The notes beneath the pieces are model-generated. The model had not been told where the DNA came from. It was given only the letters and a program-made list of their open reading frames with translations, and did not search any database. A stretch of 64,000 nucleotides of DNA, taken from assembly GCA_907163375.1 (NCBI GenBank), contig CAJQUW010001409.1, positions 1,178,001 to 1,242,000 on the forward strand, read 5' to 3'. The translations under genes and the position numbers were made by a program. Below, in pieces: positions 4,190-57,700 of the stretch (positions are counted from its first letter, which is position 1; each line of letters begins with the position of its first letter). Origin of the DNA: Prostheceraeus crozeri (taxonomy: Eukaryota; Platyhelminthes; Polycladida; Euryleptidae).

Positions 4190-6604
4190 TCAAAACTTTC
4201 GCTTTTTGTTCACTGCAGACTCAAGTTTTGTGTCATCCTCATTGTCAACTCGACCCCCTTCAGCCAAAATGCCTCGGAACCAGGCCTGCTGAGGAGCTTT
4301 TGGAGTGTCTTTCACACGATGCTGTCTGCTTGATATCCAGGCATGGACAGCCTTCCGAGGATTCCAGAGTGCCAGCGGCGGCATGTTGTGATAAATGTAA
4401 AGATATTCGTTTTCTGAATCCACTGATAATCTGCTGCGTATCGCATTCTTCAGGGTGTTACTGGTGCTTATTAGCCGTTCCACATCTGCAGAGTGAGGTT
4501 TTGCCGCAAAAATACGTGCCAGTATGATCAGCACATTCTTGAAGGATGAGGACGCGAAGCGAAACACAAGACCAGCAAGAGACAACTGGCGTAAGGAATC
4601 GATGTCATCTGTCGACAAAATTTCTTCATACTCAAGTGCCAGTGTTGCCAAATCAAGATCAGTGCCCAACAAATTGTGGATCTTCGGGATATTTGCCGAG
4701 GGCTGCAGTTGTACGAAGGGCTTGATCGTATCCAGCATTTCTTTATCGACACTGAATCTCTGATTCAAAAATTCAACCAAGCTTGTACTGATCTCGTTTA
4801 TTATCGCATCAACCGATCTTTCTTGGGACACATAGAGATGATGTTCTTTTCCTCTTCTCGTGCGTTTTGTGCTGAGCTTGATACTGTTCAATTGAACCGT
4901 ATCATCGGGCAGCTTTTGTACCTGGCTCTGGAGGGTCTCAACCCAACCTCCAACCAACGGAGTCTCCCGCATGGCTTCCAATCGGACTTGTGTTGTTTTG
5001 GTTGCCTGTTCCATATCAACAAGTGTTATGTCATTACTTTGAAGATTTTTTTGGTACCGTTTGAAAACGAACAAACAATCCGCAAGAAAGGACAAAAGAA
5101 GAAGGTTGTCTTCAGTCAAGAGGAATTTCAAAAATCCGCGACATTCGGAGTCAGACGATGATTTCATGTACTCGACAAGTACCTTCCAGGAAACAAGCAC
5201 TGCATTCAGTAGAGCATACGAAAATTCAGACCATCTCACTTCGAAAAGTTTGGGCAAATGGAGTAGCGGACACTTCGTTTCCTCGGCAACACCCTTCAGT
5301 TCTCGTGTTCTGATGCCAGAGGAATGGAAGTAGGTGGATATCGAAATGATAACTTGAAACATCTTTTTCACCTCAGGCAAAATGTCGCTTGTTGATTTCC
5401 ACGCCAAATTGGACCGATGCACTGCGCACCAAACGTTGAACAATGGGAGCGGTTGCTTGCTGTTCGAGTCTCTGTATTCCTGCCTGAAAAGCGTCCACAA
5501 ACCTCCTTTCTCACCGGTATTGACTGAAGCACCATCGGTTACAAGGGATGTCGATCTCGATAGAATTTGTTGTGCGCCATTCGGTCCCAATGTATTAGAG
5601 CAGGCTTGCTTCAATGCTTGAAGAACACCATTTGCACCACGAACTTTGGGCTCACTAGCACCCAGAAAGTACAGTTCGCTCTCACCTTCTTTTGTAATCA
5701 CTTTGGCCATGACGTAGATCTTGTCAATCTGGGTACGATCTACTGTTCCATCACATCGTAAGGATATGGCCAATGTTTCGTTCGTGAGTTTATCGGAAAG
5801 TTCACTGCTGTCACTCTGCACTATAAATGTTAAAAATTCCTTGTGGCTGCTGGGAGTAAGATATTGGAAATCAGTGGTTTCTGTCGCAGGCAGATGTTGT
5901 TTCGAATATGAAAACTGATTCGCAATTTCACAAGTCACAACTCTCGCAGGGAAAGAAAACTCGCTGTGGGTCAATTTTTTTGCGTCTGAGTAAGTATGCA
6001 ACATGAGACGTCCGATTTTATCAGCCAAATCGGCATTCATTTTAGAAATAGTCTTTCCAATAGCGGTGGCATGTGATTTCTCAACGTTTGAGAGAGTGTT
6101 GATCCTGCACGCTTTCACACATTCCCTATGGTACGGTTGGGCTAAATGGTTTGCTGCAGTTTCCTTTCGGAAGATTGCCCCATCTGCAGTGATTATCTGT
6201 GGAAACCGGCTGTGATCAGTGAATTTTTTCACGATATCAGGAAATTGTGCGCATGGTTTGCATTTTATGTAGTGGCGTCCATTTTTTCTTGTGTGTCGAA
6301 AAACAGATTCATCCGAAAAAATGTCTTTCGTTTGAGAGCTGGAAGTATCAGGTTGGGAGCATTGAGCATGACCGCTTTTTACCAAAGATTCAGGAAGTAT
6401 GTTGATTTGAATAGCTGTAGCGGCATCTTCAGACAGGTTGGTAGACGAAGGTTTCGGAGAAGTACTGGTATTGGATTGTAGGCCAATGGCATCTTGAGAC
6501 AGGTCTGCAGACGGAGATTCAGAAGAATGGTTTGATTTTTGTAGAAACTTATTCAAACAGCTTTGTTTCAACTTCTTTTTCTCTCTGAAATATAAAGTTA
6601 TCAC
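4190..6604 (-). CDS. hAT-superfamily transposase-like protein, intact main exon (KIAA1586-like zinc finger type)
   Basis: An 804-codon frame without stops. Near residues 100-165 is a zinc-finger-like block with CKPC and a downstream H...H..C set, of the TTF/BED sort that precedes hAT cores. The RNase H-like core shows RCDGTVDRTQ (first Asp, about residue 290), TDGASVNTGEKGG (second Asp) and CAVHRSNLAW (the CxxH motif of hAT). The C-terminal dimerisation region has HSADVERLISTSN with the catalytic Glu, RSRLS and a closing PPLALWNPRKA block. The first residues (MITLYF) probably lie in an intron: the minus strand reads TATATTTCAG immediately before the AGAGAAAAAG at 6,584, a good splice acceptor, so a 5' exon may lie beyond 6,604. 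It cuts and rejoins DNA if active, or is a domesticated hAT gene. I could not find convincing TIRs. hAT assignment firm, subfamily tentative. Confidence 0.8.
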   Translation of the reverse strand: MITLYFREKKKLKQSCLNKFLQKSNHSSESPSADLSQDAIGLQSNTSTSPKPSSTNLSEDAATAIQINILPESLVKSGHAQCSQPDTSSSQTKDIFSDESVFRHTRKNGRHYIKCKPCAQFPDIVKKFTDHSRFPQIITADGAIFRKETAANHLAQPYHRECVKACRINTLSNVEKSHATAIGKTISKMNADLADKIGRLMLHTYSDAKKLTHSEFSFPARVVTCEIANQFSYSKQHLPATETTDFQYLTPSSHKEFLTFIVQSDSSELSDKLTNETLAISLRCDGTVDRTQIDKIYVMAKVITKEGESELYFLGASEPKVRGANGVLQALKQACSNTLGPNGAQQILSRSTSLVTDGASVNTGEKGGLWTLFRQEYRDSNSKQPLPLFNVWCAVHRSNLAWKSTSDILPEVKKMFQVIISISTYFHSSGIRTRELKGVAEETKCPLLHLPKLFEVRWSEFSYALLNAVLVSWKVLVEYMKSSSDSECRGFLKFLLTEDNLLLLSFLADCLFVFKRYQKNLQSNDITLVDMEQATKTTQVRLEAMRETPLVGGWVETLQSQVQKLPDDTVQLNSIKLSTKRTRRGKEHHLYVSQERSVDAIINEISTSLVEFLNQRFSVDKEMLDTIKPFVQLQPSANIPKIHNLLGTDLDLATLALEYEEILSTDDIDSLRQLSLAGLVFRFASSSFKNVLIILARIFAAKPHSADVERLISTSNTLKNAIRSRLSVDSENEYLYIYHNMPPLALWNPRKAVHAWISSRQHRVKDTPKAPQQAWFRGILAEGGRVDNEDDTKLESAVNKKRKF

Positions 6605-7189
6605 AATCAGTTAATATGTATATAATCTAACAGTTAAACGTGTTTTAAATTTACTTTTCATTGCTTGTATTTATTCTCTTCATAGCACCGAAAAAAGTTA
6701 GGTTGTACGAGCGTATTACAAGTAGTCACGCAGTGGTCCGTATTCACTGAAAGAAATGTAGATACGTACGTACGTAAATGCTGCCATATATACATGTATG
6801 CCCAGGTCCAGTAGCGAGGGGTGGTCTGACGAGGTAGGCTAGCGTTTCCCTATAGATATAGACCCCTTATAGACAATAATTCGCGTATTTTGTGACTACC
6901 CATAGGCCTACTTAGGCCTAAGCCTAACTTGTATCTCATCACCAAATTCTACAATAGGGGCCGACAATAATTTAAACAGGTAATCAACCATACATGTAGG
7001 CCTAGTGTAAGCCAAATTTTAGCTAACCACAAGTTTGCATTGCTGCAGATTGTATGTATTTACTATTTACCTGCAGAGGAAACGATGACAAACGCGTAAA
7101 ATTTTCCTTACAATTCAACACAAATCAAATGCAAATTTAAAAAACTTCGAAAAGTTCATTACAGCAAATGATCTTTGCAATTTTTTTCA
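6605..7189. other. no gene seen; AGGCCT-rich spacer
   Basis: A second cluster of TAGGCCTA palindromes (6,900-7,000) mirrors the one on the other side of the hAT gene. A possible 5' exon of the hAT gene would lie here or beyond, but none is recognisable. Confidence 0.4.
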
Positions 7190-12715: not shown

Positions 12716-13523
12716 TAATACATGAATATTTATTTAGTAGGCTTGTTCTCGGACTTGCGTCAAATGTCGATAAGCACATTTGAAAAATCAAATTTAAAAA
12801 AGCAAATGTAAAAGTATGCATAGGATAAGTAGACCTGTACAAGTTTTGGATGATTCGATTCACGGCATGTAGAACCCATATGGACTCACCTGATCCCTTT
12901 ATTTTCACGAATAGAGGGCCATTCGTATCGAGTGCACTCGATTTCGTGATGCACTGCACCCAGCATGAAAGTTTTCCTTTCCACTTAGGGGTCACGCCGC
13001 TCGACATGTAGGCCTGTGTACGCTCGTACATGTATGAAAAACTAAGGATTCATTTTCAAGGACACGACTCATGTAGTTCTATTCTTCCCACTTCCCACAT
13101 TTTCCAACTAAGTTTCATCAAACTTAGTCACATTGGATTTTTGGAATAGACTTCACTAAGTGACAGTACAGCACCACTGAGAAGTCTTACTTGAACCCTG
13201 AGATAAAGAATTGGTCCCTTCCCTTGGATACTCAGTTAGGATACAAGGTACAGCTGTGATCATGAACTTCGTGGGATTGTTGTCTACAGACAAATGACGG
13301 GTAGTTGTCTAATTCTGACGTTGTAAATGTTCTACAAGTTTGATAAGAGGATTATTACAAACTCAGCGCTTTTGCGTAGAGAGATTGCCATTAGGAGCAA
13401 GAGAAGATCGTTAACGATGCAACACCCCTAGGTGTCAACAACAGAAATGTGGGTGGGGAAGACTAAAAGAACCCACGACTCCTATCTTTTTCTGAAAGGA
13501 ATGTTTGATAGGGCAAAATGAAC
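12716..13523. other. no recognised gene
   Basis: A 152-codon minus-strand frame (12,573-13,031) overlaps the end of the MITE and shows no known motif; I treat it as chance. Confidence 0.4.
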
Positions 13524-13596
13524 CGTCCTGGAAGGGACTCGAACCCTCAATCTTCGGCTCCGGAAACCGACGCCTTATCCATTAGGCCACCAGGAC
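13524..13596 (-). tRNA. tRNA-Arg (anticodon CCG)
   Basis: The minus strand folds as a complete cloverleaf: acceptor GTCCTGG with CCAGGAC, D arm with A box TGGCCTAATGG, anticodon stem TCGGT/GCCGA (one T-G pair) around loop TTCCGGA with anticodon CCG, and T arm GGGTTCGAGTCCC. The discriminator base is G. A run of four T on the minus strand about 6 nt downstream (AAAA at 13,515-13,518 on +) can terminate pol III. There is no intron. It decodes CGG. Confidence 0.93.
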
Positions 13597-13958
13597 ACCT
13601 CATGCGCCGTTACACAAAAATATAGTAATGATAATTTTGTACTACTTTTATTTAGAAAGTAGTATACAATGATACCAACATTGTTGAAAGAATTATAATT
13701 TTGTTTCAGCTTCTGCCCAACTTTCACTCCATGGTTTACGATTATTTAAACACAATTATGAAAATGCTTCCAGGTTATCAGTTGTTAGACTGCTAGATAT
13801 AGTAAAGAATAATGGTGATTTCAAATTCTTGGTCAAAAATGTTTTATTGCCGACTAGTAACTAACATGAACACGATAAAATTACCGTAAAATAAAATTAA
13901 AAATACCTGAGCTACAGATGATTTGGATGAGTAGCTGCAATATTCAAATATTTCTGTC
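13597..13958. other. no gene seen
   Basis: AT-rich spacer between the tRNA gene and the 3' tail of the minus-strand LINE. Confidence 0.4.
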
Positions 13959-20366: not shown

Positions 20367-21339
20367 GTACAGTATAGCACCATTATTCATCAACAATAAT
20401 GTAACTGCTACATGTGATTAACTGGACTTCATGTTCCATAGCTTCCTGACTTCGTTGCGGTGGTGTTGGCAGCACTCCTGATTGCTTTCAGCTAGAAATC
20501 TATCTCTTACCGGTTGAAAACAATACAAAGCACAAATGAACAATAACGAGATCGCATTCACAAAAGGCAAAGTGTCAGCCTTGCTAGAACTAAGGTTTTC
20601 TTTGCGAGCTACAAGCAAGCGACTAAATGTCCCTTACACAAATGTGCATCGATGGCATAATGATGATTTTCGACTCTGTCCCCAGGGGTAATGATACATC
20701 GTCCCCGGGTACAAGGTGGTGCGACTCTACTGATTTGGGCTGGCATTTGGACCAATGGCCGCTCTGAACTTCACATACAGCAAGGAACCATGAATTCTGA
20801 ACGCTATGTGAATGTTTTACGAATGAACATTGGCCAAATGACAGATCAACTTGGTGATCCATCGACTTGGTTATTTATGGATGATAATGCTACGTGTCAC
20901 AGGAGTAGTAGAGTCAACTTATGCAAGTCTCAATTAGGGCTTAGGACATTATCTTGGCCAGCTCGTTCTCCTGATCTGAATCCCATAGAAAATGTATGGA
21001 GTATTCTAAAACGTAACGTTCGTCGTTCACTGCTACCTACAGATGGCGTATCACAACTTACGTCACTGTTAAAAAGAGAGTGGAGGAAGTTAGATCAGTC
21101 AAAAATCAACGATATCACCGAATCAATGCCTAGACGAATTGGTAATGTCATTGACAATAAGGGTAGGGCCACAAAATATTAGCTTCTTAAGAACCGTTAC
21201 TGTATCATAGCTTATTAGATTATATAAGGACATTTAAATATATTACGGACATGAAATAACATGAAAAATGCTTTCTGTATCATACTTATGTTTTATTTAG
21301 TCAAATTTTAGGATGATCCACTTTTTATGAAACGGACTG
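20367..21339 (+). mobile_element. Tc1-like element copy 1, internally deleted
   Basis: The right end reads inward as CAGTCCGTTTCATAAAAAGT (minus strand from 21,339) and is followed by TA, identical to the end of copy 2 at 62,819. The left end is uncertain: TACAGTATAGCACC near 20,365 could be a diverged terminus. Compared with copy 2, roughly 360 bp encoding the transposase N-terminal half is missing. Confidence 0.8.
20691..21182 (+). pseudogene. Tc1/mariner transposase, C-terminal part
   Basis: The frame contains LFMDDNATCHR (second catalytic Asp) and WPARSPDLNPIENVW (Glu). Thirty-four residues separate Asp and Glu, the DD34E spacing of Tc1. The helix-turn-helix DNA-binding half and first Asp are lost through an internal deletion whose junction lies near 20,680, with filler-like bases CCCAGGGGTAATGA. 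Confidence 0.88.
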
Positions 21340-24845: not shown

Positions 24846-24891
24846 CGATTTCCTTTTTTTTCCTCCGACCTGACCATTGTCCATTCTCACA

Positions 24892-25668
24892 ATGTCTGTG
24901 AATAATACCAAGACTGTCGACAGCTGCGATGCCAGTCCCTGTCTGATAACGCAAAAATCAAGAGATCGAGATAGATGTTCGATTGAGTGTAGCAGTCCAG
25001 GTTGTTGCAAGAAATTTCATGCACTCTGTGTTGGACATGGAAAATCAACTGACAAGGATTTAAACACGCTTTTCTTCGTGTGTCTCAAATGCGAATCATA
25101 TCTAAAGTATGGGGCCGAAATCGCACGGAAGTCATTCATGACTGAGTTAGATGAGAAACTGGAAACTCTCGCGACAGCTATTCATCAGACTATTGATGCA
25201 AAAATTGCTTTGACAACTGAAAATATCTTAGTCAAGACAAGTTCGATGTGTGAAACCAACAGCAAACACTTCGAAGTAAAGTTAAATGAAGTCAAAGCTA
25301 TTCATGAAAAAGAAATCAACGACCTAAAATCATCGTGTGAGTTAATGTCTAAATTTGTAAATCATATGGAGTTGGATAAGCGGAAGAACTGCTTTATCGT
25401 TAGAAATTTTCCTGAGAACCAAGTCAGTGTGAATGATCATGAAATATCTAGCTGTAAAGAGGCGGTCTCCGCTATTGCTAAGGACCTTGACCTCAATGAA
25501 GAACTTCCGAACATCCAAGATGTGCACAGAATTGGTAGAGCTCGGCAAGATGGAAAACCTCGCCTTATCAAAGTTCAAACTACACCGAAGACGGCTGAAC
25601 TGTTTTTGCAGAAAGCGCGGCAACTGAAATCGGCGGTCCATTCAGGAAGATTTACCTTTGGAGGTTAA
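24892..25668 (+). CDS. LINE-B ORF1 protein: PHD-type finger plus coiled coil
   Basis: The ATG at 24,892 (CACAATGTC) is the first in frame and gives about 258 residues. Residues about 10-65 have the C-C-C-C-H-C-C-C layout of a PHD-type zinc finger (CSSPGCCKKFHALCVGH, then FFVCLKC). A charged, probably coiled-coil stretch follows at about 80-165, then an RRM-like block starting RKNCFIVRNFPE. ORF1 proteins of this sort bind element RNA. The frame ends at a TAA at 25,666-25,668, but the next bases (from about 25,670) still translate to related basic sequence in another frame, so a frameshift may have cut the true C terminus. Confidence 0.75.
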   Translation: MSVNNTKTVDSCDASPCLITQKSRDRDRCSIECSSPGCCKKFHALCVGHGKSTDKDLNTLFFVCLKCESYLKYGAEIARKSFMTELDEKLETLATAIHQTIDAKIALTTENILVKTSSMCETNSKHFEVKLNEVKAIHEKEINDLKSSCELMSKFVNHMELDKRKNCFIVRNFPENQVSVNDHEISSCKEAVSAIAKDLDLNEELPNIQDVHRIGRARQDGKPRLIKVQTTPKTAELFLQKARQLKSAVHSGRFTFGG

Positions 25669-25827
25669 TAGACGATTGGCTGAAATGCGAAGGAGAGCCT
25701 TTGAGCACCGAACTCAGAATCCAGGTGAAACGGCATATGTCAAGAATAAGAAATTATTCATAAATGGAATCATCGCAGACGAGATTAAACTGGATTTTTA
25801 AATTCTGATTTTAACACAAGAAAATCT

Positions 25828-28417
25828 TTGAGAACGAGATTGCCTTCTATTTTCTTGACAAATTTGAGGTCCATTAATAACAAGTTTGATGATCTCCTTT
25901 GTCAAATATCTACTTCTAATGCTGATGTTGTGATATGCACAGAGACATGGTTGACTTCGAATATGCCCAATCAATCTATTAGCATCAAAGGCTACGACTG
26001 TCATCGAACTGATCGATACAATAATTCTGCTCGAGGTGGTGTGGCTATTTGGTCCAAAAAATTCCTACGCGCTGAGAAGTTGCAGTTTCCGTTATTCAGT
26101 TATGCTGAAGTGTGTTGTGTTGTGATCTCGAAGCTAAAGCTAATCATCGTTGGTGTATATTTACCTCCTGGTATTACTCAACCTGTTTTTAATGAGTTTT
26201 GCATTACTTTTCGTGATAGTCTTGATGACATACTCATTAAATTTTCTCACCATTGTCCTTTTGTCTCTGGCGACTTTAATAGTCATAATTGTCTTTTCCT
26301 TACGAATTTATTTTCTTTAAAGAATTTGTGTCAAAACCCACCCGAAATGACGCTATACTTGTTATGATATTTGTTGACTCAATTCTAATACAAAGATGCA
26401 GTCCCGAAAACGTTGAAGTTGGACCACCGATCAGTGGTTCGGACCATAATACAATTTTTGCCTTTCCATCAGACAGAAACGCTTCAACAGCTTCAAGGAA
26501 GCACATTTTTTATGACTTGCGCCTCTCGCACGCTCTTGCTTTTGAAAAGGAATTTCTGAGTCATCCCCATTTGTCAACTTTTCATGATGAGTCTGATGTA
26601 GATAAAAAATGTGATTTTCTCATTGATATGTTAACTGATTCGATGTCAATTATTCCCCAACACATTGTGTATCTTTCTGATGCTCCTTGGTTTACTCCAT
26701 TTTTAAAATATTTGATCAATGTGAGATGGGAGGCTTTTTGATTGCAAGATTGGGATAAATATAATTATCTTAAGGTAAAGGTGAAAGATGAAACAGTTCA
26801 GGCAAAGAAAAAGTACTTTCAAGAGAAAAGGGAGTCAGTAAAAGGACTTTGGTCTTATGTAGACATGGAACGGGGCTATTCTGAAAATGCGCAGTTCGAC
26901 GCTCTTTTGGATGATTCTCCTATTCATTCTGTATTGAACCAGTTGAACCAGAATTTCATTGCCAGTATGAATTCCCGGCCAACTACCCCCACTTTTGCAA
27001 ATTTTCAAGATGATGGATGGATGCCGTCTTTCACGGTAATTGATGTGTGGAAAATTCTCTCTGGGTTGCCATCTAAGGCTACCGGTAGTGATGGCGTTCC
27101 AACGAGTATCTAAAAGAAGTCTGCTCTTATCTTGGTTGAACCAATTTTTGATTTAATAATGTCATGCTTAAAACAAAGGAAGTTTCCTATATCATGGAAG
27201 ATCGCAGATTTATTTCCAGTACCGAAATCTGCAAAGGTATCTTTCGATAACTTCAGACCAATCAGCCTTCTACCTATTCCCGCGAAAATTGCGGAGAAAA
27301 TTATTCTGACTGACATGAGATCTCGTCTAACATCTTGTTTTGGTAGTGATCAATTTGGTATCAGGCAATGTCTTCAACGACTCACGCTGTCATAGCGGCT
27401 CATGATACTTTGACAAAGTTATTTGACGATCCATGTATTGGAGCTTCATTGCTTGTTAGTTTTGACTTCAGCAAAGCATTTGATAAGATTAGTCATGACC
27501 TCATTCTATCGCGAGCTTTGGAACTGAATTTACCTTCTGGTTTTGTAATGTTTTTAAACAGTTATTTAGAACAACGTCAACAGCGAGTTCGCATGTACAA
27601 TTTGAAGAGTGATCTCAAACTGATAACAAGTGGCGTTCCTCAAGGGTCTCTTTTGGGACCATATTTGTTCGGGATATTCATTTCCACGCTAAGTCCGATG
27701 TTCCCTTCTACGTATATGATCAAATACGTTGATGACTTGTGCATTATTGCTGGCATCAGGAAAACTCATCCTGCTGAAGATGCTAAGATGATCAAAAATG
27801 AATTAGAAAATATTTCTCAATGGTCTTCTTCCAATTCTATGTTGCTAAATAGTGATAAAACTGCAGGGCTTATCAATTACAGAATCTCCTTCAAAGAAAA
27901 TTTTGATGTTGAGAAATATATCAATGAAGTGACCTTCCATCCCTACATCCGTATTTTGGGTGTCTACTTTGACAGCGACTTCAGATGGAAAAGTCATGTT
28001 AGCCTTGTTGAGAGAAAATGTGCACAGAGACTGTATATTCTTCGACGTATGAAATCTATAACGACAGACTCTGAAGTTATCATGATTTACAATGCCCTGA
28101 TCAGACGTTTATTGGAATATGCCTCACCTGTTTTTATTGGTTTATCTACCGGAGATGAAAAACGTCTTCAAGTAATTCAGAACCGTTGCATTCGCATGAA
28201 AGGAAAAATTGACTTACCAAATCTTGCTGACAGGAGAAGACGCTTGGCAAACAGCCTATTCCAGAAGCTGCCTTATTCAGATACCTTTTTGAAGTCTCTC
28301 ATCCCTCCCAGACTCCAAAGTGGTCGTTTATCAGTGCCGTTTTGTCGAACAACCATTCGGAGAAACTCGTTCTTTCCGCGACTATGTATTATGTCTGCCA
28401 GTACTTTTTGTGATTGA
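25828..28417 (+). pseudogene. LINE-B ORF2: endonuclease and reverse transcriptase, broken
   Basis: Endonuclease motifs come first: TNLRSINNKFDDL, VICTETWL (Glu), ARGGVAIW, FVSGDFN and GSDHN. RT motifs follow: FPVPKSAKV, FRPISLLPI, FDFSKAFDKISHD, GVPQGSLLGPYLF and YVDDLCII (catalytic box YVDD instead of YADD). A thumb with LGVYFDSDFRWKSHV and a C-terminal domain ending in a basic RxxFFPRL-type block complete it. Lesions: a frameshift near 26,330, TGA at 26,739-26,741, TAA at 27,111-27,113 and a frameshift near 27,375. The protein would nick DNA and copy its RNA by target-primed reverse transcription; this copy cannot. Confidence 0.88.
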
Positions 28418-28545: not shown

Positions 28546-29181
28546 TAAAAAATAGTTTTCTTAAGCGTAGTAAGGATAGCCTACTATGTAGAGTAGCAAC
28601 TCAGCATATATTTAATCCCCTACGTGTGCATACAGCTTCGATTTCATTAAATGATGAGTAGAGACAGCACCAACCAAATATGATATATGCAAACTTTTAC
28701 ACTTCTGGAGAAATGTATACGAATTTGATTTATTATAATAGCAAAATAAGAGAGAAAAGGTAATTTACAAATCTTCCATGTCATGATAACCTTGGAGAGG
28801 TAATATGGTTTGCTGAATTAACAATTCGATGGGTTACCATTGCTTTAAAGCTTTTCAAAAACAAAATTATTTTCTTAATGCGTGATCATATCACAAGCTG
28901 AAAGAGTAAAACATCATTATCAAATAAACTGATCATAATTAACTTAAAAGATTCAAATAAGTCCACATTGCTATTCAGACTCAAGAAATGACGCCTTCTG
29001 AATCACAAAATCATACCGCTGAAAATGAATTAAAAACATGAAATCTCATTATATATCTCTCAAATATGACTTCCCATAGATACTCCAAGGAGCTCTCAAT
29101 AAGATCTGAACTTTTCCATGAAGATTTGCAGGGACTTGCATTATAGTGCAGCTCATGAAATTTCATTGATAACCTGCTGAA
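28546..29181. other. no gene seen
   Basis: AT-rich spacer between LINE-B and the piggyBac-like element. Confidence 0.4.
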
Positions 29182-29619
29182 TTAACCTAGTACTGCCGAT
29201 CGGGTCAAAAATGACCCGAACGGACTTTCATGCATAAATCAACAAAGAAAGGAGAATCAGATGGACGTGAAATTTCGTGACTTTTATAATTTACCTCGAG
29301 TGTTTATTTTCATTTATTGCTCCACTTCATATCTATTGACCCAAGAGTACTACGTGTATTTCAAAATTTTACATAAGCCTACGCATAAGGTCGACCGGGT
29401 CATTTTTGACTCGAAGAAGTTTTGACCAGAGATGTGTCTGACGATAACTTCTTTACATCTTTTGATTTGGCGAACAGATAAAGTGAGCGACGATTGTTAT
29501 ACATGTACATAAGTGAGAAGCATGAAAAAAGAAATACCAAGCGCACCTCGCCAAAATCCCAATAGAAATGCTCGAGTAGGTCTACCGCGACCTATTCAAG
29601 CATGCTAACATGACAGAAT

Positions 29620-29907
29620 TTGGACATCGTCAGAATTATGCCACCATTGTATCATACAAGGTCAGAAACGTTGCCATCAACAATGCATTGCATTGGAACG
29701 TACGATGACCTATCCGAAGAAAATAAACCAGAAATCGCTTTGCATTACAACAAGCATAACCGCGGAGTATACATTCTTTACAAGATACGAGTTTCAAGGT
29801 TTCAAGGACATCGACGCGGAGAGGAACTCGAAGATGGTCGACAAAGCTATTCTATTCGATTCTGGATGTTAGATGTGTTGCCAGTTTTGTTATACGAGTA
29901 CTTGTAG
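29620..29907 (+). pseudogene. piggyBac transposase fragment, left of the P insertion
   Basis: The frame contains TRSETLPSTMHC, then IGTYDDLSEENKPEIALHYN and KHNRGVYILYKI. This is the KPEI..YN..K.GVD..D block that surrounds the last catalytic Asp in piggyBac transposases. The key D of GVD(x)2D is changed (GVYILYK), so this copy is dead. A WMLDVLPV-like helix follows. Confidence 0.75.
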
Positions 29908-30058
29908 TTCTGCTATACGTAGGTACTCGGTGCACCAAAACCATAGAGGTAGAATATCTTCCCTGTTATATCTAGAGTGCTGACTGTGCATGACTCGCAG
30001 GGCGAGGCAGAAAGATTGAGGGTCAGTTTATCTGCATCGTTTAAATGCGAGTGTTAGC

Positions 30059-32903
30059 CATGGTTGGCAGTTGTGCGGCTTACAATTGTACTAAAAGAGG
30101 AGGAAATTTACACAGACTAAACCAGCGCTTCTCCAAAAATGGATCAAAAATATTCGTCGTGTCGGCTTTAAGCCCGGTAAACACTCGCGTATCTGCTCCC
30201 ACATGCTAAAGTTAAAGCGAAATTTATTGGCCGAATACGAGATCCTTGCCCGTACAACTGGTGAATCAACTGAAAAAATTCGTTGGTTTTACATTCAAGA
30301 ACTACACAAATTGCAGATGAAGGATTCACTGATTTTAGCAAATAAACTTTCGGGACGTCATGTACATTATCGTAATCTTATAATGAAAGTAAATATTGTG
30401 GCACAGACTATGAGCTCGTCAGTGGCGACTGCCCTTGATTTTTTGCGAGACGATATGAAATTGCCGCAATTCAAGGTCAGCGAAGCAACTTGCCATTTTA
30501 TTCGAATAATTGATCGACTATTCGACACTTTGAAAAATCCGTTCGCTAAGGGGTTCAAGTCACCATTGAGAAAAGAAAATAAAATGCATTGGGACCCATT
30601 CCTTAGATACGCGAAAGACTATTTGCTGACTTTGAAGCGTAATGACGGTTGTTTCATCATCGATACGAGACGCAAAGTCCCAGTTGTCGGATTTTCAATC
30701 ACCATTTCTTCGATTCTTGAATTATCGAATCATCTTTTGAGTTATCCGCATTATGCATATGTCTTAACTTATAAATTTTCGCAAGATAAGACGTAGAGGA
30801 GGCTGGAACAATAATCCATCGAGTTCTCAATTCAGGTACGCACTTCGAACGCTTCTGATGACAAACTCAGGTAAGGCATCATCAGGGATGAAAACTCCGA
30901 TTCCGAAAAAAGTCGGAAAATTTCCGAACCCCTTAATACACCTATATTTGACGTGCAAATCAAGAAATAAAGGTTTGGTGTTATTAAGTAACCTGAACGA
31001 AGTATGTTACGTGCACTACGTATTCTGCTTCACTGCCAAACAACAGTCAAAAAGTTGTCTTACTTGTAAAACGGAAAGTTAAGATTCGTTATGATAACTG
31101 ATGTAGTCGGCTGTAAGGGGGATGACTTAGTTATAACACAGCCCTTTCTTTCTGAGTGTTACGGAAGAAATTTTGAAAAACCCCACTTTTTGAAAGAACC
31201 CAATAAAACCCACACTGGGTCGGTTTTATTGGGTTTTTTCAAGTCAAGTGGGTTTTTTGCCAACCCTGACTTTAAATCACTTTACCCTAAAGCTTGGTCG
31301 GACTGATAGTCCGGGAGCTAGCGTGAAGTTGTGCAGGGAACGAGGTAGTACATAAAACTTTCACATGGCATAGTACACCTCTAACCTACTGCAAAACTTC
31401 GCGTCTGCCGGATCAGATCATTTGCTTTTAAGAAATAGAGAGGATAACAAAATCCTATGTATTTCCAATGGTAAAATTGTGACATTTAAGGTGTTGACTC
31501 CATTTTTTCGAGTTTTTGCTCATAAAAGTTACACAAATTGGTATTTTGTTGAACTGGTTATTATAGAAATCATCTACAGATCATGATCTTTCAAATGAGT
31601 TATCATTCAGTGATAGAGGATGAAGTAAAGTGTACAAACAGACACTTTTCGTTGGTGTAACGTCAAATTTTAACATAGAAATTTCAGGAAAATTATTGAT
31701 ATACTTTAACGGAAAGTGTCTGTTCGTACACTTTACTTCATCCTCTGTCACTGAATGATAACTCATTTGAAAGATCATGATCTGTAGATGATTTCTATAA
31801 TAACCAGTTCAACAAAATACCAATTTGTGTAACTTTTATGAGCAAAAATTCGAAAAAATGGAGTCAACACCTTAAATGTCACAATTTTACCATTGGAAAT
31901 ACATAGGATTTTGTTATCCTCTCTATTTCTTAAAAGCAAATGATCTGATCCGGCAGACGCGAAGTTTTGCAGTAGGTTAGAGGTGTACTATGCCATGTGA
32001 AAGTTTTATGTACTACCTCGTTCCCTGCACAACTTCACGCTAGCTCCCGGACTATGAATAGTCACATATGTGAATAGTAATCTACACATTAAAATCAGCT
32101 TTATCCCCTTTATAAATTTCCCGATGATAGTTAATGGAAAAGTCATGCATTATTCATGCTTTTTCGTAATTATCAGAATAACAAATTACAAACTGGTAAC
32201 CATGTAACAATAAAATGTAACATTGGATATCTCGATAGGCCTAATGCGTTGAAAAATCAATCATCAGACATACATAACAACTACATAAAATAGGCCTACT
32301 TGTACGAGAGAATATTGACATAGTGAGGGAAACAAATTAAATGGTTACAAGAAGTTCATAACAAAATAATTAAATGTAAATTCAAATGCAGTGGCACAAG
32401 ACGATACTGCCGATATTCATCTACAGTTTGGAAGGAACAGCAACGGCGATAGCCGACAAGCTTTAACTGCGTTTGAGTCTGAGGAATCAGAATAAGATTC
32501 AGACATAATATTATCTAAAATGGACTCGGTGTTCGATCTTAATGGAGCTGATTGGCGCAGAGACGTTCTGTATTATATCGCTGGCTTCGTTTCACGAAAA
32601 TTGCGTAAAATGATTACATGTCCTTCCTGCAACCTTGCATTATTCAGGCAAGAAACTGAGGAACCTCTTTCTGATGTCGACTCCTTTTTGAAACGCAAAG
32701 ACAACGGCGGACTCCTGACTCCCTCAAAAGGAGTTTTTGAAGTAGTCTTAGCTGCAGAAAAAGCTTTCCGTAGTTACGTCCCTGCAAGCGTGGCGGCCGA
32801 AGTGCTTCCGTCAATTAAATACTTAGACCTCAAGATCGAGCACTCTGCATTGAAATATATCAATCCATGTGAAACATTCATAAGTCTTGGCCATAAGTCA
32901 TAA
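30059..32903 (+). pseudogene. P-element/THAP9-type transposase relic
   Basis: From the ATG at 30,059 a THAP-type DNA-binding domain starts (MVGSCAAYNCTK). After a frameshift in an A run near 30,130 it continues GFKPGKHSRICSHM, where one residue of the usual C-x2-H appears lost. The frame then runs straight into the C-terminal half of the transposase at 30,203-30,796 (AQTMSSSVATALDFL, KGFKSPL, YVLTYKFSQD), so the leucine zipper and most of the RNase H-like catalytic core are deleted. RGGWNNNPSSSQF follows near 30,797 in another frame. The terminal domain is at 32,520-32,903 (YIAGFVSRKLRK, CPSC, LKRKDNGGLLTPS). The foldback element lies between. It cannot encode active transposase. Confidence 0.85.
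31307..32054. repeat. foldback element, 748 bp, 3-bp TSD (TGA)
   Basis: The two halves are inverted copies of each other over about 350 bp with few mismatches, from TAGTCCGGGAGCTAGCG at 31,307 to CGCTAGCTCCCGGACTA ending at 32,054, with a central spacer near 31,655-31,700. TGA flanks both sides (31,304-31,306 and 32,055-32,057). No coding capacity. Its arms are related to the TAGTCC-type repeats at 10.37 and 15.35 kb. It lies inside the P element, so it is the youngest layer of the nest or a part of that P family. Confidence 0.9.
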
Positions 32904-33509
32904 CCCTATCCTGTGACCCTTATTCGTGCTGTAATAAACTGTTATTTGAAACTAAGACTGCATAAGTATGGTCGTCTATACAAAGAACGTCGCTTTTTGC
33001 TCAAAAGCTCAATCCGCCAAAAAAGCAATAAATTGGTTCTGTTCCGCGGCATGTAACAGTGGTGCTACTATCACACATGTTTTGGATGCTGTTGTCACAT
33101 CGGTAACCTGCATTTCCTACATATTTGCTTGAGTCATTTAATTATGTTGAAATTCATTCATTAGGGATCTGATGAGTATCAAATAACCTCAATTAACAGT
33201 TAATTATTCAAATACTCCCTGCCATTTTTTGAATGTATTTAAAAGGTTGAACATTCCTTAAATATTAATAAATGTTAAACTAATCGTAAACCTAAAATAT
33301 TGAATGAGCCTGTCACTCAATTACAGGTGCGATTTCTATTTATCATTTTGATTGTCACTTTCAGTCAATATTGTACTGTCCGACAAAACAGTCCATCTCT
33401 TGCCCCACATTTCGCGTGCGATAAAATCCTCATGCCGGTTACACTTCCCATAACGCCGTCCGCCCTCTAGATAATAGGGAAGATATATTCTACCTCTATG
33501 ACCAAAACA

Positions 33510-33630
33510 TGCAGAGTAAAAACTGGCGACGGTGGCATTTCTTATTGAAGCTCGGTGAAGAATTGATGGAAGCTGCGCAACCTTTTCGAGCGATCACATC
33601 TAACATCCCAGTGACGTCATGGGACATTCT
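33510..33630 (+). pseudogene. piggyBac transposase fragment, right of the P insertion
   Basis: Directly after the P-element duplication the + strand reads NWRRWHFLLKLGEELMEA, a match to the (R)R.FL..LGEELV block at the end of the piggyBac catalytic region. It continues the fragment at 29,620-29,907, which shows that the P element split this gene. Confidence 0.65.
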
Positions 33631-34200
33631 CTGTTATTTTAAACAGACATATCATATCACAGTACCATCCCTCAAACGTTAGCAACCATAAATGAGGTAC
33701 TACATTGGATTGATCTATCAGCATGGGATAACAAACGCGAGAGTAAATGTGAACGATGCAACAAATGCATTTGAAAAAATCGTTCCAAAAATAGTATATC
33801 CATTCTTTGTGAAAATAATTGTATTTTATATATGTAAAATCTAATATTTGTCATAACTGCAATCAAACTTGCAATTCTTAGCTGTGTTTTGATTTCGAAG
33901 CACTACTCAACCGATTTATTTTATTCAATTGCCATGTCGCTCTTGCGTGATAGTTTTGAGAACAGCAATAAACAAGTAAAATATATTCAATTACCTTTAT
34001 TCATCACAGTATATCATCACTATTTTTGCGTGTGACTTTGTCAATACATATCAATCATCTATTTATGATTTAAATGTCAAAAAGATAAAAAATAATCATC
34101 TCTTTATATATCTTTTGATATCTTTAAGTAAAAAGATTTGAGACACAAATTTTCAGGTATCTTTCCATGGGGGTTAGGAGAAAACCAAATAAACCTATCT
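33631..34200. other. no further coding; 3' part of the piggyBac-like element
   Basis: AT-rich sequence up to the right terminal repeat. Confidence 0.4.
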
Positions 34201-34625
34201 TTGGATCATTTTTGACCCAGTCGGCCGTTAACGTATGCAAAATTGTTTGGCAGTTAAGGCTAGACTTACCAGACGTCTCGGTCTTGCTTGCATGTCCCGG
34301 GGTTCCGGCCGGTTGTGACTTTTGTTCCGGTCAGTTTTTGATGAAATGAAATACTTTAAATTTTGATTTTTTCATCTGAATGCTATTTCGAATTTTAAGA
34401 CAATTGACCTTTGATTAAAGGAAGTCTTCTTGATAATAGCATGGCGAAGCATATTTGTTGTTCTTGCAAAGCAGTTGAATTTATTCAACAAAACTATAAT
34501 GCATAGAGAAAACAATGCTAGTGCCAGTGATTTTGACTTTTTTCAAAACTGCTCCAATAATTTTTTGGATCACGGGAACGTAATCTCCGCAAAAAACTGA
34601 ATCTGTTCATATAAAAATTTCCGCT

Positions 34626-35154
34626 GTATACAGATACTATTTGAGTCGACACTCTACCTATCCCTACTTTGTGATGTGAATCATTTACATCTTTTTAAGT
34701 CAATTGAAATCATTGTCTTTGATTATGTGATTTTGCTCTGCCAGTGGCATGATGCCTGTGATAGAATCACGCTTAAGAAAATGCTCTTGAGGTTGAACAT
34801 GAAAGTAATAGAGACTTACCGAATTGCTATTTTAACATACATTAAATCTCCAAAGCTGTCATGACACTGCGAATTTATAGAATACCATCATTCCTTCTGC
34901 ATTATAATATCATGATCAGTAATATTCCGTGGCAATTTCGTCAAAACTGCGAAAATGTGTACATCTCACATTTGGAAACAATTACCAACTGTATCCCCCA
35001 CGAGTTCATTTTAATAAAATCGAAATTGTTCACCAGTGGTGTATACACTTTGGGGATCCAATAAATGAGGAGTTACCACTCCAACAATCATAGAGTAGGC
35101 GTCGACCATAGATAGAGTAGGGATGGTGTCGACTCAAAAAAAGTATCTGTATAC
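34626..35154. repeat. MITE-like element, copy 1, 529 bp
   Basis: Ends match as inverted repeats: GTATACAGATACTATTTGAG then TCGACAC..CTATCCCTACT on the left, and their complement on the right (35,105-35,154). No transposase. An internal block of about 415 bp (34,670-35,085) recurs at 35,587-35,974. Confidence 0.65.
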
Positions 35155-35586
35155 AATGAAAATTTTCATATCAAAAGATTCAGTCATAGAGTACTACATC
35201 ATGGATTCAGTTTCTTGCGGAGGTTTTCGTTCCCGTGGTCCAAAAAATTATTTGAGCACTTTTGAAAAAGTCAAAATTTGTCAGTTTATATGCCACCGAG
35301 ATGACTCTCCTATATTAAGTAACATGAAACAAGTTGGATATCAAATTGCTAGAAGGCATCATAACCATAGAGTAAATATATATTCCTACTCTACATGCCT
35401 AACTAAGCGGAAATTAAGCTGATTATCCAGGGAATTTCATGAATTGTATTATAATGAAATTCTTCATGAAAAAGTCGCGATAATTCGTGCTTTCTTGGCT
35501 GAAATTTCAAGTTTTAATTCAAGTTTCACCGGCATGACTTCATGATTCGATCACTAAATTCATATTTCATTTCTAGACTGAATAGT

Positions 35587-35974
35587 GATGTGGAATCCAT
35601 TAAATTTAAGTAAAGTCATTGTCTTTGATTATGTGATTTTGCTACCGTTGGCAGGTTCCGTGTGATATGACCACGCTTAAGGAAATACTCTTGAGGTTGA
35701 GCATGAAAGTATAATAGGAACCCATCGAATTGCTAATTCAGCAAGCATTAAATCTCCAAGGCTGTCATGACACGGACGATCTGTAAAATACCATCATTCC
35801 TTCTGCACTACAATAATGATCAGTCAATTCCGCGGCAATTTCTTCAAAACTGCAAAACTTTGCGTCCCTCACATTTGGTGACAATTACACCTGTATCTCC
35901 CTTTCAGTTCATTTAATAAAATCGAATGTGTATGCACATTGTGGATTTGATAGATGCGGAGTTACCACTCAACC
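35587..35974. repeat. diverged direct copy of the MITE-like internal block
   Basis: Parallels 34,670-35,085 with many substitutions and small indels. Shared landmarks include GTCATTGTCTTTGATTATGT (35,616), ACGCTTAAG, ACCATCATTCCTTCTGCA and GGAGTTACCACTC. The TIRs are not both present. Confidence 0.7.
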
Positions 35975-36029
35975 TAATATACCTTCTCCATTCCAACAAT
36001 ATACCTACTCTATGCACTGCATGCAGACA

Positions 36030-51700: not shown

Positions 51701-54700
51701 TTTATGGAGCGTAGATAGACATAATCATCCAAAGAAATTATTCGCCTTACTGACAATAATACTGATCTGAAGCGTCACTTGGTAAAACCTTGTGAAATTA
51801 TCTTTTAATTGACGCTTATGGATGCATCAGTGTATTTTTTGTTAAGGTTGTCACTAAATATCTAAAGAGAATAACCGCCGCATGTAATTATCAAAAATAT
51901 TGACTCCCTTTAATTCCAGAATGAAGGTGGAATGCCGGTGAAGGATGAATCAGGATTATTAATTTCTATGTCATATGTATAAAGTAGTTTGTCTTTTTAT
52001 AATGGGCTGCGTCAGACAATAACTGATTATCAAAAATACAGCGAAAGTGAAAAAAAATAATCAAAAACTCCCCTTTTCAATTTGCAGCCGGTATAATAAA
52101 GTGAAAGTTGAAAGTTTGAGAGACATGCTTTCGGCGTCCAGCGCCTTCAACGGTCGCGGTTTGGAAGGCCATTCAAACATCGACCGTTGAAGTCGCTGGA
52201 CGCCGAAGGTCTGTCTCTTAACCTTTTAACTTTTACTTTAGTACATCGACCTGTAAATTGAAAGGGGAAGTTTATATTATTTTCTTTTTTCTCAGAAAGA
52301 TGATCTCCCGTCACTTGGTCAACTACATTAAGAATACTATTAACTTGTGCGGACCTTAAACTATTGATAACTGTTTCAGGCTACTTTAGATATGATGAAT
52401 TTTTAATATTTGAACTTTTGACTGCTGAAGAGATCAAACGTCAAGGATTCAACCCATGGAGACCCATGGTGTGGTTGGACAGATTGGGCAGATCGCCTGG
52501 GCAGATTTGATATCCATAAATTGAAATTGAATGTTTAAATTAGTATATTTTAATCCTCAATGCAATATGGATTTTGCAGGCCTTCATTAGAGAATCTGCC
52601 ATTATACTTTCTGACAAACTTCATGAAATCAAAAAGCTCATCATGCATGATATTCAACTTCGCAACTTCCATGGTTTTGACATCATGCATTCACAGACTG
52701 GGTAAAAATGGCACTCAGTCAGTGACCTCCGTACTACTCGTAGTGCATCGTATGTCATTTTGATAATTTGTAGACAATGTAGACCACAAGTGATTTTAGT
52801 ATTTGACAACACCTGGAGACTTCGATATTATCTGGTTGTTAAGATGCTGGTAAACGTGTAGGCGTGGATGTCATGTAATTATATGGTAACACTGATATAT
52901 CAGTGGTCATGAACTTTCGATATTGTTAACACTCAATTGTTCAGATTTGATGTCATTGTTGCAAGGAGTTGTTCGCGAATTTTTGATAGTAAAAGAATCA
53001 CGAATCGTCGCTAGATAGACAATGTCGGGTTGAACAATATTTCTTTTAAGTATCGGGTGCTAATTATGTTTATAAATAGCCCTTTCAGGATCTATTATTT
53101 TCCAGGGTTAAAGATACATTTGCTGTAACGATCACGATCTCAGGTCGTGATCGGCATTGTCTTGAATTTCTGAAAAACGTGTCCCATACGTTTAAGAGCG
53201 TGCAACAAGTATTGATTTAGCATACTGTGCTTTCTTGAATTGAAAAGGGTTTAACATTTCATTGATACGAAAGTGAGCGCATTCATGTTTGGTGAGATGC
53301 CGGTACTCTATTCTACTACACTCAATCCGCATTAATTCAAGTCTCGTCACCCTTCGCCGATCATGTAAATCTGAATATTTTTCGAATTTCATTTCTCCTT
53401 CATCAAAATAAATCTCTAATATATTTTAAATTCAAATTTTTTCGCTTACATTGCGCGGATATGCATGCAAGGTTATAAATAGTTGTCATTTAAAGCATAA
53501 TGAATGGATGCTTAATGATGTTGCATATGATGTTGCAATGATGTTGCAATGATGTTTTCCCTTTCTCACTCAACCTGCGGCCTCAAAGCGGTGAAAGGGT
53601 GAAAACGGAGTCGCAATAAGGCTGTGTCGTCTGAAGCTCATGCTTCTTTGGGTTCTACCTTGTCGGAAAGGTTTATTGTCGGCGGTTTGTGACCGTGCTC
53701 CGGCTAACTGGCAGGCTCTGGAATATTATTTATATTTTACTGGTCATTGAATTCATTTATGTTAGATTAATTTTTCATTCTTTTTCTCCACGTTTGTTTA
53801 TTTTAAATGTGTGGTAGGCTTCGGCCGTCCCAATTAACACCACCCCCTGATTTGCGAGATAAGAACAGTCATCAGATGTTTCATGTTGTTGAATCAGGTT
53901 TTTGGGCATGGCACTTATTTGGCTCATTTGTGATCGAACTTCCTTCCACTGCTCTCTTTTGCACTTCCCCATTTGTTGCAGGTTAAGGTGTAACAGATCC
54001 AACGTATTCACGGCATACGGGCGTCAGGTAGTTCGAGGGTCCCGAACCCACTGGTAATGCTTTGGGAGGCAGGCCCGGTCAACTGCTCGAAAAAAAGTGG
54101 TACAGTTCCACTGCCACGGACATGCGTGGGTAGCTTTACTGAGGGGTTTAGCCCGTGTGGCTGTATCCGGTTCATCTGTGGCCTACCTGACTTGTACCCA
54201 TTGTTACGGCAAAGGGGTTCTCATTTGGGTTTCTTCAAGCTTTTGCGACATGAACTGTATAAGTGTCTTTTTTGCGTATTATTTATTGCAGCTTTGTTGC
54301 TAATATTTACGTTTTTCTGATGCCTTCCAAAGTTTCTTGTATCACTTTGTTGTACAATATAATTTTCGTTTATTTGATTGATATTCTATGAGAAATTATG
54401 AAAATGAGAAAGACATACAAGAAACGTAGTCAAGCCGTCAAGCTCAAAACCCCTCTCAGGATCAGCTTCAGCAACGTAAGAGGACTGAGGTCCAATTACG
54501 ACGACATCAACATCTTCCTGCAAGGTAAGTCACCAGATCTTCTAGCCCTGTCGGAAACCAGGTTAGATCCCAGTGTGTCATCAAGCGACGTTACTCCTGA
54601 TGGATACATATTTCACCGGATGGATAAAGCACCTTGTCATGGTCTTGGAGTCTATGCCAAGACAAGCCTTCCCTTGAGAAGGCTTCGTAGCTCAGAGGAT

Positions 54701-57700
54701 CCAAGGCATGAGTATCTTGCCTTCATTGCGCCGCTGCAGAAGACCACTCTTCTTCTATTTTTCCTATACCGCTCTCCATCAACTAATGCTGATATTTTCA
54801 ATGTTCTTTCTGACAAGATCGATTCTCTTCTACAAGAGTATCCCAGCGCTGAAGTTGCCGTTTTTGGTGACTTCAACGTACACAATGTTGACTGGCTTGG
54901 GCACTCACGCACCACCGATCTCTCCGGTCAGGCAGCCCAGGATTTCGCTGTCTCTCACAACCTTAGTCAAATTGTCACTTATCCTACCAGAGTGCCTGAC
55001 CGAGCTGGGATACTGGATATCTCCTTAACCTGTTTCTCACCTCAAATCCAACTTGTTTTTCACACAAGGTTACTTCTCCCCTCGGCACGTCTGATCACTG
55101 TGTTATCACAGTTTCTGGCAAACAAATTTGCTCCACACCGTCTGCACCCTTCCATAGAACAGTTTATCAATTCTCCAAAGCAGACTGGTGTGGCTTCCGC
55201 ACTTTTCTTAGTCAAGTTCAAGCTGAGAATTTGATTCTGAGCGAGAATGTCCACAAGTCGGCGCAAGAACTGACAGAGTGGCTTCAGATAGGGATGTTGG
55301 CCTACATTCCTCACCGTACTTTCCAAATGAAACCCCACTCACAACCTTGGTTTACACCAGAATGTGCAGCTGCAAGTTGCCAGCGTGACTACTTTTTCCA
55401 TAAGTATAAGCGTGACAGTAGCGCTGGCAATCTTGAATTGTACAAAACCGCACGTAGACATTGCAAGGAAACCATACATCAGGCCAAAAGCCGTTACGCT
55501 TTTTTATGTACGGAAATCCATTGCTACCCAAAAGCTTGACTCTAAGGACTTCTGGAGGATTTACAACAGTGTCATCAATAGGAACAAATCCTCCATCCCA
55601 GCACTCCGTCATGCCGAAGTCAGTACTTCTATGGCGACAACCTCAGCAGACAAAGCCGAGCTTCTTTGCAAGGAGTTTGCGAAGAATTCGTCATTAGACG
55701 ATGGAGGTAGAATTCCACCTCCAATTCCCACGCGCACTGATGAGACAGTTAGTCCTCCTTCAGTCACAGTCCGAAACGTCAAAAAGATCATCGCCGGTCT
55801 CGATGGCTCTAAGTCTAGTGGACCAGATGGCATCCCGGTTTCGGTCTTCAAGCATCTCTCACCTGAGCTTTCTCCACTTTTATCTAAACTGTTCAGTAGA
55901 TGTGTATCCACCAGTGAGTTTCCCTCTTGTTGGAAAGTAGCTTCCGTGGTTCCAGTTCCAAAGAAAGGTTCTGACTCATCTCTTCCATCTAGTTACCGTC
56001 CTATCAGCCTGCTTCCAATTGCGGGCAAGATTTTTGAAGCAGTGATTAACCAACACATTGTTAACTTCCTTGAAACTCAGAACCTTCTATCAGAAGAACA
56101 GTATGGCTTCAGGCACTCTCGATCAACTGCAGATCTTCTTTCATATGTCACTGAACATGTGAGTCGTGTCCTTGACCGACAAGGTGAGACGAGATCAGTT
56201 GCCTTGGATATTTCCAAGGCATTCGATAAAGTCTGGCATCAGGGACTCCTTATGAAGCTAAAGTCCTATGGAGTTGCTGATCAACTCCACAAACTTCTTG
56301 CTTCTTTCCTTAGTGACCGGCAGATATCTGTTGTCTTAGATGGACAAAAGTTTTCCACCAAGTTTGTCAATGCAGGAGTTCCTCAAGGGTCAGTTTTGGG
56401 ACCCACTCTTTTTCTGCTGTACATCAACGACCTCCCAGACTGCCTAGTGAGTAAATTGGTGATGTATGCAGATGACACAACACTCTTCAATTCCAATGAT
56501 CGACTCGCTAAAAACACTCAGCAATGTCAGCAGTTATGCGACGCTCTTAATGAAGACTTAGGCAGGGTCTCAGAATGGGGCGCCAATTGGCTTGTTTCCT
56601 TCAATCCTTCAAAAACTCAGAGTATTCTGCACTCACGACTTAAAGGAGATGATGATGATCATAGCATTAAGATGTCAGATAATAGGATCAGAGAACAAGA
56701 TTCCATCTCCTTTCTTGGATTGTCGGTTACGAAAGACTTGTCATGGAAACCGTACATCCAATCCATTAGCAAGCAGGCAGCTCAACGCATTGGTAGTCTC
56801 GATCGTGCCAGCAGCTATCTTTCACCACAGACTGTCTGCTATCTTTACAAGTCCACTATTCGTCCTCTGATGGAGTATTGTTGTCATCTGTGGGCATGCG
56901 CCCCACAAACGCATCTTAACCTCCTTGAACGGGTTGAGAAACGTGTCAAGAATCTCATGGGTGAAAAACATGCTAGCAAGTTGCAGCCGCTCTCCGTCAG
57001 ACGGGATGTTGCTTCACTCAGTCTCTTCTACAGGTACTATTTCGGTAGAAGCAGCTCTGCAGTAAATGAGTGCGTACCCAAACCTAAGATCTTCTCCAGA
57101 AGCACACGCAGAGCTAATGCACTCACATGCTATAATGTGAGCTTAGAACGCGCACGTACTGTGAGTCGCTCGAAAAGCTTTTTTGTTCGCATGGCAGAGC
57201 TTTGGAATCAGCTTCCCCAGACCACTTTCCCTGACCAATGCAATCTTGGTAATTTCAAAAGGCGTGCGAATAGGTTTCTGATGGGGACTGCTTAATCAGA
57301 TTAGAAGATCTGTTTTTTTATTTTATTTATTTAAAATAATACAATTTGTTACTTTTCATTGAGTAACCCCTAGCTTCGTTCATGGCTCATAGCTGTGCTA
57401 GGGGTGAAAATTCAGTAAAAAAAATTTTTATCATCACGTCAAACTCCTTCTACTTTTCATACTACAGTATACAGTAGTTCTTTATGAAGTACAGATCTAC
57501 ACTAAATCTCACAGGCATCGACAGAATTTGATATCGTTAACTAAGTCAGTACTTGTACATAGAAGGAAACCTAACTGTCTGTACATCAGAGTCTAGCATT
57601 CAGAAACAAAATATTGTATCAGAAGACGTTGGCCGACGGACTGACCGGTTTAAATTTATCTCAACAAATGTTCTACCGAATTATGGGGACCAGAAATTCG

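Follow-up and report, generated by a model that had tools for sequence, protein, structure and literature searches.

Evidence for four successively nested mobile elements, a piggyBac-like host, a P-type element, a third element and a foldback, in the genome of Prostheceraeus crozeri

The classical FB elements of Drosophila are flanked by relatively long target duplications, about 8-10 bp. For P elements, two published accounts describe 8-bp duplications and internally deleted copies (PMC7776569, PMC10983969). Here we analyze a stretch of 64,000 nucleotides from the polyclad flatworm Prostheceraeus crozeri (contig CAJQUW010001409.1, positions 1,178,001 to 1,242,000), referred to below as the window, in which a piggyBac-like element encloses a P-type element, which encloses a third element, which in turn encloses a foldback. 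We place the probability that four elements are nested here as successive insertions, and not three, at roughly 93%. A sequence-only reading of the same DNA had ordered three insertion events; an additional level, extending from 30883 to about 32385, lies between the P element and the foldback. Since each guest interrupts its host, the piggyBac-like element came first, followed by P, then by the third element and last by the foldback. The insertions of P, the third element and the foldback, three of the four, were tested by comparison with copies from this genome that are not interrupted, and for these last three steps the relation of guest to host is directly demonstrated. All copy searches covered one assembly of this genome, comprising 2,048,925,868 bases in 14,165 contigs.

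Level 1 of the nest is an internally deleted piggyBac-like element, about 1.5 kb long without its inserts, which spans 29182-34257 and carries TTAA at 29182-29185 on the left and, after an eroded end, at 34254-34257 on the right. In its left part a transposase remnant with stops and frameshifts is encoded on the plus strand from TRDVSDDNFFTS on (29425-29895). When joined by hand, this remnant matches residues 341-485 of the Trichoplusia ni piggyBac structure 6x67 (E 6.6e-6), the sole match in the PDB at E ≤10, while its score of 17.2 bits against the Pfam model DDE_Tnp_1_7 is under the cut-off of 22.4; NCBIfam gave nothing for the piggyBac-like transposase read. Transposase blocks had been proposed on both sides of P, and the left one is thus borne out by homology. 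The right one, RRWHFLLKLGEELMEAAQ (33527-33580, plus strand), has no Pfam profile match of its own and is supported by reading by eye and by other copies, in which the two parts are continuous in DNA. The genome contains many such copies: at least 44 matches were obtained with 29182-29942 and at least 60 with 33501-34231 (window included), and 20 copies, found by the left part, were fetched. When 29,942-33,508 was excised in silico and the joined sequence was compared with this family, 17 of the 20 copies aligned on both sides of the insertion point without P, so that the proposal that P splits a piggyBac-like element is confirmed. In the remaining three (L039, L043 and L048) the alignment ends before that point within the fetched stretch; on the contig of L043 the right part is matched at a distance of about 1.9 kb, so that another insert may lie there.

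Fifteen of the 20 copies were aligned (L039, L043, L046, L047 and L048 were dropped), and both sides of the P insertion point are present in all 15; L046 and L047 span it as well. Between the compared blocks these copies have 0 to 22 bases, whereas the joined window copy has 41, and about 31 bases of the remnant near the insertion (29896-29926), present in the window copy, are absent from 15 of 15 aligned copies. The target site itself is present as one perfect ACCAAAAC in 6 of the 15, altered in 7 and deleted in 2. L042 and L047 share a nearly identical right flank, which may reflect duplication of a larger segment. The amino-terminal part of the transposase is missing in the window copy, and none of the 20 fetched copies shows a break there, which suggests that the internal deletion probably preceded the spread of this group; the 20 copies were found using the deleted form as query. 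On contig C8983, about 2.0 kb separates pieces that match query positions 2-168 and 250-713. This locus was considered as a fuller copy, and no piggyBac frame was recognized by eye in the 1.1 kb read there; the interval is probably another insert. The part read (L096, C8983:76800-77900) lies within the piggyBac-like copy and contains minus-strand, coding-like frames of 120, 87 and 72 codons that were not recognized.

Near the ends of the host, the core GGGTCAAAAATGA is exact at 29202 and, inverted, at 34206, and allowing one mismatch adds only an inverted occurrence at 29400. By eye, the family has TTAACCCATGTACTGCC at its left end, where the window reads TTAACCTAGTACTGCC. At the opposite end, homology to the window persists to 34252-34255 in 12 of the 14 fetched copies with a recognizable right end (family homology reaches about 34254), and the other two (L037 and L041) stop at 34228 with a different, shorter right end. 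Beyond this, inspection by eye gives GGCAGTACATGGGTTAA for the family and GGCAGTTAAGG for the window, in which terminal bases of the right end appear to be lost or altered. The earlier description of TTAA-bounded termini with cores is therefore correct for the cores, while the TTAA at 34228-34231 taken as the right boundary is internal, the boundary being located about 26 bases further on, where a second TTAA is present at 34254-34257. Among copies with ends that could be read, TTAA is present at 8 of 16 left ends and 6 of 14 right ends; the window has both, with its right terminal bases lost.

Level 2, the P-type element, occupies 29942-33500 on the plus strand and contributes about 2.06 kb of its own in addition to the inserts. 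Its inverted ends, CATAGAGGTAGAATAT, are found at 29942 and 33500, directly inside two perfect 8-bp copies of ACCAAAAC (29934-29941 and 33501-33508), a perfect duplication that had been read from this DNA before; among 200,000 random pairs of 8-mers only 8 were identical. The terminal inverted repeats (29942-29984 and 33458-33500) are 43-45 bases long and agree at 84% in a gapped comparison. Two coding remnants on the plus strand are above cut-off, one for the P-type GTP-binding insertion domain (30200-30568; PF21788, E 5.7e-37) and one for the THAP9/P C-terminal domain (32496-32903; PF22824, E 4e-7), and a longer C-terminal read, with X at stops, gave PF22824 at E 3.3e-7 and PF12596 at E 1e-4. 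THAP (20.8, cut-off 23.9) and the C-terminal part of RNase H (23.9, cut-off 24) score just under their limits. Up to about 1.1 kb is missing at 30196-30199, including part of THAP, the helix-turn-helix (HTH) and the N-terminal part of RNase H, and this copy was probably moved by the transposase of another.

Level 3 (30883-32385, minus strand) is the terminal piece of a repeat with the end CAGGGATG; it is hAT-like by eye, and its right side has been cut off. Twenty P loci were fetched, 8 of which are without that part of P. In the 12 informative copies the insert from 30883 to about 32385 is absent and 30882 is joined directly to 32377 (to 32380 in L068, in which 3 bases are missing), and the site reads GTTAAGG, compared with GGTAAGG in the window. 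The inserted sequence is present elsewhere in its own right: a search with 32040-32400 yielded at least 34 matches, and the 33 listed outside the window are 89 to 98% identical, with 29 of them ending at 32384-32386. In the five loci L090 to L094, 30883-31306 and 32055-32385 are parts of a single repeat, which has some gaps internally and extends about 1.5 kb past the break in the window, as far as the fetched DNA reaches. The end CAGGGATGAAAACTCCGATTCCG was found at 31 places including the window, with no mismatch at 27 and one or two at the other 4, and a reversed control was found at none. At the break, the P sequence CAAATGCAG and the repeat sequence ATTCAAC share CAA (32383-32385), and 6 P bases, TAAATG, are missing, from which we infer that the repeat was inserted and that a later deletion removed its far end. 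An 83-base palindrome (31176-31258), also matched in other copies, lies inside the third element. A Helitron reading of the insert, suggested by a hairpin and a CTGA-like end, was dropped, the constant end being CAGGGATG with varied flanks.

Level 4 is a 748-nt foldback (31307-32054) with ends TAGTCCGGGAGCTAGCG and inverted arms that are 99% complementary. It is flanked by TGA on the left (31304-31306) and on the right (32055-32057), and all five of the third-element copies that were read have the unoccupied site, CGGACTGAATAGTC with a single TGA. The foldback and its TGA duplication had been recognized previously and stand, but its direct host, which had been taken to be P, is the third element, as these five empty sites demonstrate. 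A search with 31290-31700 produced 1557 candidates; among the best 40, which were scored, the full-length matches outside the window are 97 to 98% identical. Five loci examined with their flanks (L084 to L088) have 748 nt between the ends, although the right-end bases are altered in L088. Among L084, L085 and L086 the flanking duplications are TGA, TCT and GTA; they agree at 2 of 3 bases in L087 and cannot be read in L088, in which the right end is eroded. Per 748 bases, the window differs from these five loci at 11 to 15 positions and the five differ from one another at 6 to 12.

Several points must be set against this picture. A single assembly underlies all the comparisons, and the copies compared are the best-ranked matches to the window sequence and not a random sample of their families. 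For the piggyBac-like element, two copies (L044 and L045) lose alignable sequence early, which inflates the mean pairwise Kimura two-parameter distances (K2P) of 0.30 among the 15 copies and 0.28 between these and the window. The TTAA pair of the window is only suggestive because its right end is without the family's terminal bases, and no empty site for this first insertion was found in the assembly, where the left flank can be matched to a repeat in L039 as far as the TTAA and the right flank matches the window only. For the third element, the far end was not found, and no end could be recognized in 1.5 kb of C13137; in Pfam the frames of L090, L092 and L093 matched two unrelated models weakly and none of the hAT models at E ≤1; and near the other places of the 23-bp end no inverted counterpart was detected.

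These observations bear on the class of the third element. Its CAGGG end, together with a frame, VLSCFSGPKVEGAFSIMNAIKTEQRPQMSVSSISASL, that by eye we take to resemble a hAT dimerization region, suggests that it is a hAT element, with no support from Pfam; the PDB yielded nothing meaningful for this frame, and its comparison with window positions 4193-6610 gave short, chance-like pieces only. The principal alternative is that it is a 5'-truncated retroelement, the constant end of which would be the 3' end, with the coding strand directed towards it. The coding strand does read in that direction, the window copy stops inside the repeat at 32385 with no clear duplication, and the lack of an inverted partner and of a Pfam hAT match also speaks for it. 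However, L090 to L094, the five copies read, can all be followed for about 2.1 to 2.2 kb from the constant end, where the fetched DNA stops, and display no varied truncation, and both the CAGGG end and the resemblance of VLSCFSGPKVEGAFSIMNAIKTEQRPQMSVSSISASL point elsewhere. We consider a retroelement unlikely, although it deserves to be kept in mind, and regard the third element as a candidate hAT element.

Two further alternatives concern the nest as a whole. Unrelated repeats might have been brought together by the assembly, an error to which a 748-nt palindrome and repeats that are young and nearly identical are generally liable, but the perfect 8-bp (P) and 3-bp (foldback) duplications match empty sites in other copies and every component differs from all the copies with which it was compared, so that an artefact of this kind is very improbable. 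Scarcely credible is a nest with only three levels, in which 30883-32385 would be native P sequence, for instance an intron lost by other copies, since, in spite of a donor-like GTAAGG near its left edge and GCAG near its right edge, this is refuted by the 12 of 12 informative P copies that have GTTAAGG and no insert, by the open frames of L064 and L065, which run through the site, and by copies of the insert outside P that carry the end CAGGGATGAAAACTCCGATTCCG.

Given four successive insertions, all probably by cut-and-paste, the following sequence of events may be proposed. An internally deleted, non-autonomous piggyBac-like element of the TTAA type would have arrived first. The P-type element would have followed much later; internally deleted itself and presumably mobilized in trans by fuller relatives, it would have entered the old transposase remnant and duplicated ACCAAAAC. 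The CAGGGATG-ended element, hAT-like by eye, would then have entered P, after which a deletion, for which end joining over CAA is the probable route, would have eliminated its far end, 6 bases of P and, if there was one, the second target duplication. Finally, a 748-nt foldback belonging to a large family with 3-bp duplications would have entered the third element, either before or after that deletion. The times of these events, like the movement in trans and the route of the deletion, are inferred and not shown. The divergence among other copies of each family agrees in outline with an old host and three young guests. Compared with the mean of 0.30 noted above, the mean pairwise K2P is 0.028 for P (range 0.0035 to 0.063; 17 of the 20 fetched loci, L070, L076 and L079 having been dropped), with a mean of 0.032 between the window and the others (range 0.020 to 0.061). 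Distances of 0.019 to 0.029 were obtained for the third element and 0.008 to 0.016 for the foldback. The ranges for P and the third element overlap, and these values, obtained with no calibrated clock and from the copies ranked best by the search, should not be read as dates.

The P-type family itself seems to have moved recently. At least 62 matches were found with 29942-31305, in which the internal part is 88 to 97% identical (99% in one short piece), and the left-end matches listed are mostly 76 to 81% identical, with gaps. Both ends are visible in 13 of the 20 fetched loci, and the 8-bp duplications are perfect in 12 of these 13, L063 agreeing at 7 of 8 positions. The stretch of about 1.1 kb that is deleted in the window copy is mostly present in 5 of the 17 aligned copies and less so in the others; L063 has the same deletion as the window copy, yet it is not the closest copy by substitutions. 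Stop-free frames of at least 866 and 876 codons are present in L064 (1-2598) and L065 (2-2629), both lower bounds since the fetched DNA begins inside these frames; the longest frame in L066, which is complete at both ends, has 674 codons. In L065 all seven P-type models score above cut-off (THAP, HTH, both RNase H parts, GTP-binding and two C-terminal models), with the THAP match beginning at profile position 20, as the fetched stretch starts inside this domain. The family might thus be a still mobile P element outside the flies, having a transposase frame free of introns, fuller copies and recent insertions in a 2-Gb genome, but we regard this as doubtful, slightly more so because L064 and L065 are cut at the edge and the complete L066 has only 674 codons.

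Nests of such elements are ordinary in transposon-rich genomes and the present one is biologically an ordinary case, the value of which is the relative order that it provides for four transposon families. A recently expanded P-type family with long open frames is of more interest than the nest, and may make it possible to examine P activity in the absence of the introns by which it is controlled in Drosophila. In the literature consulted on P elements, piggyBac and nested elements, no case was recognized as this nest, which is not evidence of absence.

Further features were noted in the window. Three diverged copies (66-77%) of one repeat flank the nest, at 28582-29048 (inverted), 34674-35081 and 35500-35979, and inverted arms at 34530-34660 and 35118-35277 (81-89%) enclose one of these, so that 34530-35277 forms another small nest. 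Open frames resembling a LINE (long interspersed nuclear element) endonuclease and reverse transcriptase were recognized by eye at 24874-28417, followed by a TC-rich tail at about 28530, and at 54392-57295. On the minus strand, an open frame of 806 codons (4190-6610) is hAT-like by eye and has no Pfam match at E ≤1. Two similar mariner/Tc1-like frames were seen by eye at 20667-21182 and 62976-63898, and ARAGORN placed a tRNA-Arg (ccg) at 13523-13597, minus strand. Viral contigs were also scanned: a protein scan returned one pattern match and no relative, a 32-base foldback pattern had no match, and a 16-base P pattern was found at 20 places, which we take as chance.

The four levels may finally be compared with known systems. 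The host resembles the piggyBac superfamily in its transposase remnant, its left TTAA and the inverted GGGTCAAAAATGA-type repeats near both ends, and departs from it in that, outside the core common to both ends, the right end exceeds the left by about 26 bases; compared with T. ni piggyBac, the window copy is without the amino-terminal part and scores under the Pfam cut-off. The third element shares with the hAT superfamily its CAGGG end and, by eye, a C-terminal frame, whereas it has no Pfam hAT match and neither a far end nor an 8-bp duplication was seen. The foldback consists almost entirely of two inverted arms, with no frame longer than 70 codons on the strand read, as in foldbacks and miniature inverted-repeat transposable elements (MITEs); it differs from Drosophila FB and Mutator-type foldbacks in its 3-bp duplications, in place of long ones of about 8-10 bp. 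The P-type family, like Drosophila P and the zebrafish P-like element Pdre2, has 8-bp duplications and many internally deleted copies, and its ends begin with CATA, as does Pdre2, CATACCTGTCAAC (PMC7776569, PMC10983969). The terminal repeat CATAGAGGTAGAATAT distinguishes it from both of these elements. The window copy is without part of THAP, the HTH and the N-terminal part of RNase H found in known P elements, while its relative L065 resembles P elements in matching the THAP, HTH, RNase H, GTP-binding and C-terminal models. In L064 and L065 there is one long open frame, in contrast to the introns of Drosophila P.

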